Shown here in pieces: positions 22,767 to 24,773 of a stretch of DNA of 64,000 nt. This stretch comes from Roseobacter sp. MED193 (GTDB lineage: Bacteria; Pseudomonadota; Alphaproteobacteria; Rhodobacterales; Rhodobacteraceae). The position numbers and the translations under genes are program-made. The notes below the pieces were generated by a model. That model was not told the DNA's origin, searched no databases, and was given only the letters and a program-made list of their open reading frames with translations. Position 1 is the stretch's first letter. Each line of letters starts with the position of its first letter. The stretch is taken from NCBI RefSeq assembly GCF_000152965.1, contig NZ_CH902583.1, positions 2,549,892 through 2,613,891 of the forward strand. The letters are read 5' to 3'.

Positions 22767-22828
22767 AATGTTCTCCCTCAAAAGTCATTTACAGCAAACA
22801 TGGCCAAGCCCGTGGCGAGGTGCAATCG

Positions 22829-23254
22829 CTAGGAGCCTTCTGGCGTGATTTTTCCTCGCGTCGATTTGAGGCTGCTGCGTTGCTTTTTGCTCTCCAGTCG
22901 CCGTTTGACGGACCCGCGCGTTGGTTTGGTCGCTATACGACGCTTTGGCGCTACCAAGGCCTTGCGAATGAGCTCGGCTAAGCGTTCGCGCACCAGCTCG
23001 CGGTTGCGCAGCTGCGAGCGGGTTTCGTCGCATTGCATCAGAATCGCGCCCTCTTTGGTCCAGCGCCGACCAGCCAGCCGTTTGAGCCGCGCTTTCACTG
23101 CGGGGGTGAGCGCGGGGCTGCGGGCAGCCTCAAACCGCAGCTCGACGGCTGTGGCCACCTTGTTCACGTTCTGCCCACCGGGACCCGAAGCGCGCATGAA
23201 GCTTTCCGAGAGTTCCCAATCCTGGAGTGCGATATCGTTGTTGATATGGAGCAT
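22829..23254 (-). CDS. arfB: Alternative ribosome-rescue factor B (peptidyl-tRNA hydrolase)
   Basis: 141 aa. The release-factor GGQ motif (SGPGGQNVNK, near residue 22) catalyses peptidyl-tRNA hydrolysis. The C-terminal basic tail (KPTRGSVKRRLESKK) is the ArfB hallmark that enters the empty mRNA channel of stalled ribosomes. Start uncertain: ATGs at 23263 and 23254 are both weakly supported. I chose 23254 because LHINNDIALQDWEL matches the family N-terminus. Confidence 0.92.
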   Translation of the reverse strand: MLHINNDIALQDWELSESFMRASGPGGQNVNKVATAVELRFEAARSPALTPAVKARLKRLAGRRWTKEGAILMQCDETRSQLRNRELVRERLAELIRKALVAPKRRIATKPTRGSVKRRLESKKQRSSLKSTRGKITPEGS

Positions 23255-23285
23255 GGGCCGCATGTAGCGCGGCTGGCGCAAATGG

Positions 23286-23318
23286 AAAAGGCCGCAGTCC
23301 GCTGGACCACGGCCTTTT
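23286..23318 (-). terminator. Rho-independent terminator of the queuosine-precursor transporter gene
   Basis: Perfect 9-bp stem AAAAGGCCG / CGGCCTTTT with an internal GTCC-GCT-GGAC hairpin in the loop. It ends in four Ts on either strand and sits 28 bases after the transporter stop. Confidence 0.75.
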
Positions 23319-23345
23319 GCCGGAACTGTTGTATTGACGTAGGTG

Positions 23346-23969
23346 TTAGGCAGGTTTGGCTGTCAGGCGGGTGACGATCATGCGGAAAGGCACCAGCGCC
23401 AGCAGCGCCAGCGAGAGTTTCACCAGCCAGTCGGCCACTGCCAGCGACACCCAGAGTGGCGCCATGGGGCCTGCGCCCAAGAGTGGCAGCATTTCGGTGG
23501 CCCAGGAGACGTCATTGCCGGGTTCGACCCAGGTCAGCGCACCAGAAAAGGCGATGGTAAAGAAGATGGCCGTATCCACTGAGGAACCAACCAGAGTTGA
23601 GGCCAGCGGCGCGCGCCACCATTTGCCCTCACGTAGGGCGGCAAAGATCGACACGTCAAGCAGCTGCGCGGTAAGGAAGGCGAGACCAGAGCCAAGCGCG
23701 ATGCGCAGGGTCACAAGCGGGCCAAATTCACCCATGATCTGAGTGCCAATGAGTGAGCAGATGACGCCCACCACAAAGCCCACAAAAACCACGCGGCGGG
23801 CAGGTCCGGCGCCGTAAACGCGGTTCATCACATCGGTGATGAGAAAGGCGATTGGGTAGGTAAAGGCGCCCCAGGTCAGCCATTGGCCAAACAAGAATTG
23901 CACCAGGATATTGGAGGCCACCACAACGGCAGCCATGGCAAGAATGCCAGGTAGATGAGAACGATTCAT
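23346..23969 (-). CDS. yhhQ: Queuosine precursor transporter, YhhQ/VUT family
   Basis: 207 aa integral membrane protein with about six hydrophobic segments. Family motifs TYPIAFLITDVMNRVYG (residues about 37-53) and VGSSVDTAIFF. The family imports preQ0/preQ1, precursors of queuosine in tRNA. The leader carries a likely preQ1-I riboswitch (see 23976-24009), which fits the role. Start at the ATG 23969; a GGA SD eight bases upstream lies inside the riboswitch tail. Monocistronic, closed by the terminator at 23286-23318. Confidence 0.92.
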   Translation of the reverse strand: MNRSHLPGILAMAAVVVASNILVQFLFGQWLTWGAFTYPIAFLITDVMNRVYGAGPARRVVFVGFVVGVICSLIGTQIMGEFGPLVTLRIALGSGLAFLTAQLLDVSIFAALREGKWWRAPLASTLVGSSVDTAIFFTIAFSGALTWVEPGNDVSWATEMLPLLGAGPMAPLWVSLAVADWLVKLSLALLALVPFRMIVTRLTAKPA

Positions 23970-23975
23970 TTTTCA

Positions 23976-24009
23976 GTTCCGTTTTTTATACAAGGTCGCG
24001 GCGACTTGT
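23976..24009 (-). promoter_or_regulatory. Putative preQ1-I riboswitch before yhhQ
   Basis: On the minus strand: 5-bp stem ACAAG / CTTGT (24009-24005 with 23994-23990), a 10-base loop TCGCCGCGAC, then the A-rich tail ATAAAAAACGGAAC. Loop bases CCG (positions 4-6) can pair with tail CGG (9-11), the H-type pseudoknot of class preQ1-I. In the Bacillus subtilis aptamer the equivalent pairs are UAG with CUA, so the pairing is kept while the bases differ, and the tail AUAAAAAAC is identical. The loop ends in C, the position that pairs with the ligand. The tail CGG overlaps the likely SD (GGA, eight bases before ATG), so ligand binding should block translation. Identified by eye from remembered consensus, not by a covariance search. 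Confidence 0.72.
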
Positions 24010-24146
24010 TCCGCATCTTGTGCGGAAGACGCGCTCATCTAGCTGTGTTGGAGACACTTGGCAAGTGTTTTGAAGCATCGAAGAACCTAGCGGAGCTGCG
24101 AAAGCGGCGGCTCCCGCCTGGACCACCACCTTCAAAGAATCTGCCG

Positions 24147-24293: not shown

Positions 24294-24773
24294 ATGATTT
24301 TGAAGAATGTGGGCCAGGTCTTCCTGTGGTGTTTACTTGGATCATTTGCGGTTGAGTGTCTTGAACAGTTTTTGGTTGACCCTATCTCGTTGGAACACGG
24401 AAAAAGACTACTAAACAAGGTGAGAACTGACCGGGAAACCGAAGAATTTTATTATGGAGTTTATGGATTATCAAGCGTGGCAAACGTTTGCAGGGATGTT
24501 GTTCTTTCTTGGTTGGCAATTGGGTTGATTGGCAATAGGTCACTGCTCTGGTCTGCGGTAATGGCCTTTCCGATCGCTTTTGTAGGAGTTTCGATTCCGA
24601 AGCTCATGTTTGACAATTCCGGCGAAGGGTATGCCTTTGCAGGCTTCTTTCTCGCCTCTTTTGCTTTGACGTTCCTTTGCGCATTGGCGTTTCGAGTATT
24701 CAGCGACAAAACGATTGTGCAGGAGATCGCTCGGAGATTCAAAATCTTTCAGGCCACTCTCAGGGGATACTAA
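24294..24773 (+). CDS. Unrecognised four-helix membrane protein, A+T-richer than neighbours
   Basis: 159 aa. ATG at 24294 has a good SD (AAGGAAAATT). About four hydrophobic segments: residues 6-24, 68-80, 84-102 and 113-135. A charged stretch lies between the first and second (NKVRTDRETEEFY) and a basic C-terminus follows (ARRFKIFQ). I recognise no family. Codon use is visibly richer in A and T at third positions (many TTT, ATT, GAA, TTG) than the surrounding genes, which suggests recent acquisition. It is oriented opposite to both neighbours and shares no operon. It looks real because of the SD and ordered hydrophobic pattern. Confidence 0.65.
   Translation: MILKNVGQVFLWCLLGSFAVECLEQFLVDPISLEHGKRLLNKVRTDRETEEFYYGVYGLSSVANVCRDVVLSWLAIGLIGNRSLLWSAVMAFPIAFVGVSIPKLMFDNSGEGYAFAGFFLASFALTFLCALAFRVFSDKTIVQEIARRFKIFQATLRGY

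Follow-up and report, generated by a model that had tools for sequence, protein, structure and literature searches.

Does the short leader of yhhQ in Roseobacter sp. MED193 carry a preQ1 riboswitch that Rfam does not recognise, and if so, what kind of preQ1-I element is it? The locus lies in a window of 64,000 nt (the whole stretch of DNA that was analysed), and a preliminary description had read it as a preQ1-I riboswitch acting on a queuosine-precursor importer. That interpretation is supported. We put the probability at about 0.87 that the leader element is a translational OFF class I preQ1 riboswitch, a structural variant found family-wide, with preQ1 as its putative ligand.

The yhhQ leader

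On the minus strand, from 24009 down to 23976, the leader reads ACAAG - UCGCCGCGAC - CUUGU - AUAAAAAA - CGG - AACUGAAAA - AUG. Its features and surroundings are as follows.

24059 to 24064, minus strand: TTGCCA, -35-like box of a probable promoter (sequence and leader survey)
24036 to 24041, minus strand: TAGATG, -10-like box (sequence and leader survey)
24009 to 24027, minus strand: P0, a 7-bp hairpin (UUCCGCA - CAAGA - UGCGGAA) abutting P1, new relative to the preliminary description
24005 to 24009, minus strand: P1 5' strand ACAAG, in which G24005 is G5 of preQ1-I
23995 to 24004, minus strand: loop UCGCCGCGAC, positions U6 to C15, in which U24004 is U6 and A23996 is A14
23999 to 24001, minus strand: P2 loop strand CCG (C9, C10, G11), from the sequence and leader alignments
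23995, minus strand: C15, specificity base of the loop (Tte equivalence from an excerpt of PMC10622847)
23990 to 23994, minus strand: P1 3' strand CUUGU, in which C23994 is C16
23982 to 23989, minus strand: L3, the A-rich AUAAAAAA, in which A23982 is A29
23979 to 23981, minus strand: P2 tail strand CGG, partner of CCG at 23999-24001
23978 to 23980, minus strand: GGA, anti-Shine-Dalgarno match (duplex scan, -3.5 kcal/mol)
23346 to 23969, minus strand: yhhQ, queuosine precursor transporter, 207 aa (TIGR00697, PF02592)

Every element of the preliminary description is present at this place: a stem of 5 bp, a 10-base loop with C as its last base, the A-rich tail, the pairing of loop CCG with tail CGG and the GGA eight bases before ATG. 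The overlap of tail CGG with the Shine-Dalgarno sequence also stands, in that both G of GGA sit within P2. In the 33 nt that end at the start codon, the duplex scan with the expected 16S tail finds GGA at 23980-23978 as the sole anti-Shine-Dalgarno match. An expected 16S 3'-end string has no match on either strand of the whole genome assembly, where the rRNA may be missing or different.

The gene had been called YhhQ-type, and its product is a queuosine precursor transporter by TIGR00697 (99.3 bits, cut-off 50.95) and PF02592 (105.7 bits), with a score of 108.6 under the cut-off of 252 for the narrower YhhQ model NF008406. The neighbouring genes encode ArfB on the downstream side and, on the upstream side, a phytase-like protein together with an M74 endopeptidase. 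A 159-aa reading frame divergent from yhhQ (24294-24773, plus strand) matches nothing in Pfam or NCBIfam at E 0.001.

We infer which ligand is sensed, in which direction control runs and what P0 does. At low preQ1, the ribosome site GGA would be free and the importer would be made. At high preQ1, the ligand would sit between G5-C16 of P1 and G11-C30 of P2, where it would be read by U6, C15 and A29, and in this bound state loop CCG would lock onto tail CGG and hide the Shine-Dalgarno sequence. Since the two G of GGA belong to the P2 strand, the ribosome site should become inaccessible once preQ1 is bound, and synthesis of the importer should cease.

Conservation among yhhQ leaders

Leaders of about 140 nt were compared at 110 yhhQ loci (30 + 80, some sharing genomes) that had been fetched by protein similarity with the leader not considered. 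A strict pseudoknot rule (a 4-bp P1 followed by U, a loop containing CCG, C ahead of the 3' strand, and AAA followed by CGG) fits 108 of the 110, the exceptions being L030, which is without the motif, and L058, which has a single A-C mismatch in P1. Control loci, 112 in number, 0.4 to 3.5 kb long and read on both strands, gave three matches to the same rule. The site is confirmed and is far beyond chance. Built into the rule that the 108 of 110 pass are the U in L1, the specificity C before the P1 3' strand and an A-rich L3 ending in A before P2 (AAA before CGG). From P0 to tail, 94 of the 108 fitting leaders are distinct.

Together, protein-fetched and model-fetched loci give 184 distinct leaders, a set that includes one wrong site (L146) omitted from the set of 183 used below. 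The loop has ten bases in 172 of the 184. Within these 172, C stands at position 7 in 154 (U in 11) and at position 12 in 171, and A stands at position 14 in 168, while position 10 is C in all, C10 and the CGG tail both being demanded by the search rule. All P1 types found close with G/C at the loop, which places G5-C16 on top of the stem. The leaders keep the preQ1-I contact bases, as judged against an excerpt of PMC10622847, and U6, A14, C15, A29, G5-C16 and G11-C30 stand in the contact places of the Tte (T. tengcongensis) and Eco (E. coli) structures as given in the excerpted accounts (PMC10622847, PMC11625349).

Pairing and length of the pseudoknot

P2 was assessed in the 94 distinct leaders, with N8 denoting loop position 8 and N29 tail position 29. 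All three core pairs of CCG with CGG are invariant and so offer no covariation information; only a fourth pair varies. This pair, N8-N29, extends P2, with U8 facing A29 in 37 of 39 leaders, C8 facing G29 in 12 of 12 and A8 facing U29 in 1 of 1. N8-N29 is thus Watson-Crick in 50 of the 52 non-G8 leaders, and these 50 pairs compare with 27.9 (sd 3.0) in shuffles. The G8 leaders (42 of 94) have A at position 29 in 20 cases, G in 20 and U in 2, and C follows at position 30 in every G29 case. A control offset of +3 also exceeded its shuffles (45 vs 27.9), and simple pairing tests are therefore inflated by relatedness. On a YhhQ tree, positions 8 and 29 co-change on 7 branches against 2.0 expected (p 0.0013), where all co-change counts rest on a quick tree of 129 rows with weak inner branches. 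Position 30, taken for comparison, shows more co-changes with position 8 than expected as well (9 vs 4.1, p 0.009), for which G8-C30 is perhaps a real alternative pair. An independent-pairs test limited to supported branches comprised a single pair. The proposed loop-tail pairing is conserved across homologous leaders and gains support from its covarying fourth pair, but the three pairs originally named are invariant and do not covary. It is the N8-N29 covariation that marks the fold as an H-type pseudoknot, in which the loop is paired with the 3' tail.

For P1, pairing was part of the search rule, and two of its four pairs are unchanging in alignment A2. Compensation from A-U to U-A (CAUG/CAUG) is nonetheless seen in 6 of the 184 distinct leaders, along with a C-G to G-C change (GAAG/CUUC) in 2 and G-U in 8.

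Coupling of P1 and L3 lengths is a prediction of the H-type pseudoknot because L3 must span P1. In the set of 183 distinct leaders, a fifth P1 pair is present in 22 of the 23 whose tail is long (at least 8 nt) and absent from 146 of the 160 whose tail is short, an association whose Fisher value ignores relatedness. On the tree, the fifth P1 pair and the long L3 co-change on 5 branches where 0.56 would be expected (p 5.7e-5). A 27-nt core, typically with a 4-bp P1 and a 6-nt L3, is found in 136 of the 183, and the window leader is of the long form (5-bp P1, long L3).

Probable promoter and upstream hairpin

A promoter-like arrangement, TTGN-16/18-TAN at 10-45 nt before P1, occurs in 89 of 94 distinct leaders (shuffled mean 3.1, maximum 10), with the -10-like box at a median of 25 nt upstream of P1. 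Judging from these letters, transcription in the window would start near 24029, just before P0, and the mRNA would accordingly run in the order P0, aptamer, start codon.

An unbroken stem of 5 bp or more, 0-1 nt from P1, is present in 138 of 184 distinct leaders, and P0-type stems number 18.6 on average and at most 24 in 50 shuffled sets. The 3' arm of P0 is represented by 39 different pentamers in 139 leaders. In alignment A3, P0 pairing reaches 100 percent by construction, as the alignment was selected for P0 geometry, and this value is not proof. In the window, A24009 is able to pair in either helix, P0 or P1.

Rfam and RF00522

At gathering level, the Rfam scan of the window accepted only a tRNA. 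The covariance match to RF00522 (PreQ1) that the preliminary description had looked to fell short: under permissive settings, the model aligned end to end at the site with 14.1 bits against a gathering cut-off of 39. RF00522 also had no match, even at E 10, to the proven E. coli yhhQ type III preQ1-I riboswitch (L313 5050-5300), and for this reason its failure says little here. RF00522 is blind to at least one proven subtype, and its gathering score is a library threshold and not a class-defining feature. A search of 190 genomes of the class with RF00522 returned 0 matches, with the B. subtilis control positive and the window's family making up three of the 20 rows listed. The missed E. coli type III element is an annotation gap in its own right.

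A separate observation concerns RF01867 (CC2171 sRNA), which appears after yhhQ in nine of ten loci scanned, at 24.7-45.7 bits and so below its cut-off of 75. The RF01867-like loci are L020 (2199-2370) and eight other family loci, and the tenth locus, L241, is from another family. The L020 stretch between yhhQ and arfB holds AAAGGAGGTGATCC, before a possible small reading frame, and AAAGGAGGTGATCC looks complementary to the 16S 3' end. RF01867 has no match at E 1 in 22800-23400 of the window.

Relation to described preQ1-I elements

As described in PMC10622847 and PMC11625349, from which the Tte positions are taken, the Tte type II element shares with the yhhQ leaders a 10-base loop with U6, C7, C9, G11, A14 and C15 in place, AC before the P1 3' strand, A29-C30 opening P2, and translational control. 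Three type II traits, namely AC before the P1 3' strand, an intermediate loop and a G11-C30 ceiling, are found here (PMC11625349, PMC10622847, in excerpt). The Tte-type purine steps in P2 (G8, A10, A31, A32) are not, since the leaders carry C10 and a CGG tail. P2 here is continuous Watson-Crick (CCG/CGG, often with N8-N29), whereas that of Tte is noncanonical at G8, A10, A31 and A32. Unlike Tte, moreover, P1 here is mostly 4 bp, L3 is 6 nt, an abutting P0 is common and the gene is yhhQ.

The Eco type III element before E. coli yhhQ shares the downstream gene family, a pyrimidine-rich loop, translational control and the pairing of two Shine-Dalgarno guanines with C9 and C10, according to the excerpted text (PMC10622847). 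It has a 9-base loop, UU, U11-A28 and a Shine-Dalgarno adenine that contacts the ligand, whereas the loops here are 10-base, mostly with UC and with G11-C30, and L3 is shorter. The type III combination of UU after the P1 5' strand, a 9-base pyrimidine-rich loop and an AAGG tail does not describe these leaders, whose tail is ACGG, and a motif model built from them (R1, see below) does not match the Eco leader.

The preliminary description had likened the aptamer to that of B. subtilis, a type II element that shares P1, the A-rich tail and a Watson-Crick P2 in the excerpt of PMC11625349. That switch is transcriptional and governs a biosynthetic operon (PMC11625349, in excerpt), whereas the gene here is an importer with its Shine-Dalgarno sequence inside P2. 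The likeness is apt for the pocket, but closer ones exist in the Tte type II loop, which has the same length and the same contact bases, and in the E. coli type III element, which has the same gene family and its Shine-Dalgarno sequence in the pseudoknot. As read from sequence, the variant appears to combine a type II-like pocket with type III-like burial of the Shine-Dalgarno sequence and an abutting 5' hairpin.

A bolder proposal is that these leaders constitute a fourth structural subtype of preQ1-I, private to one alphaproteobacterial family, in which P0 stacks on the short P1, holds the core together and so belongs functionally to the aptamer. We hold this tentatively, at slightly less than even odds. 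If true, the subtype would have a core of 26-27 nt, with a 4-bp P1, a 6-nt L3 and an all Watson-Crick P2 over the Shine-Dalgarno sequence, and would thus undercut the E. coli type III element, which has 36 nt and is termed the smallest natural aptamer in PMC10622847. Any claim to the smallest aptamer needs care because preQ1-I aptamers span 25 to 45 nt according to the part of PMC9495176 cited.

Distribution

Model R1 has 30 positions and was built from 41 of 71 distinct motif rows, all of the shorter 27-nt form. On the window, it scores the site at 31.7 bits (E = 1.4e-7), with a runner-up at 9.7 bits. Among 295 family genomes, it matches 274 when E is set loosely at 1; at E 0.001 the number is 234 (hand count), which leaves 61 of the 295 without a match at that level. 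It also matches 110 of 121 genomes of the window's order at E 0.01, but all 121 belong to the window's family, so they do not test the border of the motif within the order. All 35 of the R1-fetched family loci with long flanks (L123-L156 and L158, the window being L155) precede YhhQ. The motif is present in 32 of 35 YhhQ-bearing family genomes and absent from G015, G019 and G025.

Outside the window's family, R1 matches 74 genomes at E 0.1 in a class sample of 385 genomes and 15 genomes at E 0.01 in a phylum sample of 398, all of them weak, the best having an E of 1.2e-4. Forty-two such matches were read (25 class loci and all 17 phylum sites), and none is near a YhhQ relative by a YhhQ search that was positive in 69 of 70 control loci. 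Among 70 loci of PF02592 transporters from other alphaproteobacterial families, there is no convincing R1 match (best E 0.37).

The 42 matches read were judged to be chance. L171, the sole one of them that fits the strict rule, has an out-of-register CCG; in L338 and L340 the stem and loop are present and the tail is absent; and most of the outside-family sites displayed resemble the model mainly in stem and tail. L186 and L212 fit the strict rule among the 70 YhhQ loci of other families and were likewise put down to chance because the R1 E value never falls below 0.37 in those loci.

In the literature, the type III preQ1-I element that precedes yhhQ is said to be confined almost entirely to gammaproteobacteria, and Pseudomonadota are one of several phyla with reported examples of types I and II (PMC10622847, PMC11625349). 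Among the papers listed by full-text searches, none concerned a preQ1 riboswitch in the window's family, and an earlier sighting is possible in the McCown 2014 catalogue.

Queuosine pathway, ligand and alternative readings

The window genome encodes QueF (109.7 bits), QueC (192.1), QueA (415.3) and TGT (534.1). Across 36 family genomes, some of them incomplete assemblies, QueA and TGT are found in all 36 and YhhQ in 35, with strong QueF (over 100 bits) in 13 and strong QueC in 11 (hand count). Neither strong QueF nor strong QueC is present in 21 of the 36, and all 21 have YhhQ, QueA and TGT. Several of these genomes have weak QueC or QueF matches, which are taken for relatives; a few of the weak QueC scores lie just over the family cut-off. 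G028, the single one of the 36 without YhhQ, has QueF. This patchiness of QueC and QueF beside near-universal YhhQ, QueA and TGT looks as if preQ1 salvage were the family rule. Where QueA and TGT occur without QueF, imported preQ1 and not preQ0 is to be expected, and the pathway gaps would in this way favour preQ1 as the sensed molecule.

A cis-regulatory RNA of the same fold could still have another 7-deazaguanine, preQ0 or queuine, as its main ligand. E. coli YhhQ is reported to import preQ0 preferentially and the Tte type II element binds preQ0 at 35 nM (PMC10622847, in excerpt), and the P2 and tail here are unlike those of the described subtypes. However, the pocket of U6, A14, C15, A29, G5-C16 and G11-C30 is that of preQ1-I, and the 21 of 36 genomes without strong QueF or QueC, all with QueA, fit preQ1 better; we consider a different main ligand improbable.

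It is less plausible still that the CAAG...CTTG inverted repeat is a DNA operator for a transcription factor, conserved at the level of DNA. P1 does form an inverted repeat, with symmetric changes of the kind that an operator could show. The repeat, however, lies a median of 25 nt downstream of the -10-like box, and a palindrome predicts neither the N8-N29 covariation, nor the coupling of repeat and A-tract lengths, nor a varied abutting P0, and on these grounds the operator was rejected. Least probable of all is a conserved ribosome-binding region with a ligand-free hairpin (a thermometer or a protein-binding site), which the short leader, the ribosome site within the pairing and the extra hairpin might suggest, but which has no need for a near-invariant unpaired U6, A14, C15 and A-tract kept in preQ1-I register and was rejected on this ground and on the 35 of 35 contexts read that precede a queuosine-precursor importer.

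Implications

Read as a translational preQ1-I riboswitch, the leader gives a large bacterial family one more regulatory RNA, which is widely kept and which Rfam does not recognise. The main RNA library would then miss at least two forms of preQ1-I, the family variant and the proven E. coli type III element. As a natural series with co-varying P1 length, L3 length and last P2 pair, the leaders also make the geometric limits of the smallest natural aptamer class directly testable. For the family itself, the findings suggest that many members without the de novo pathway may depend on imported preQ1.
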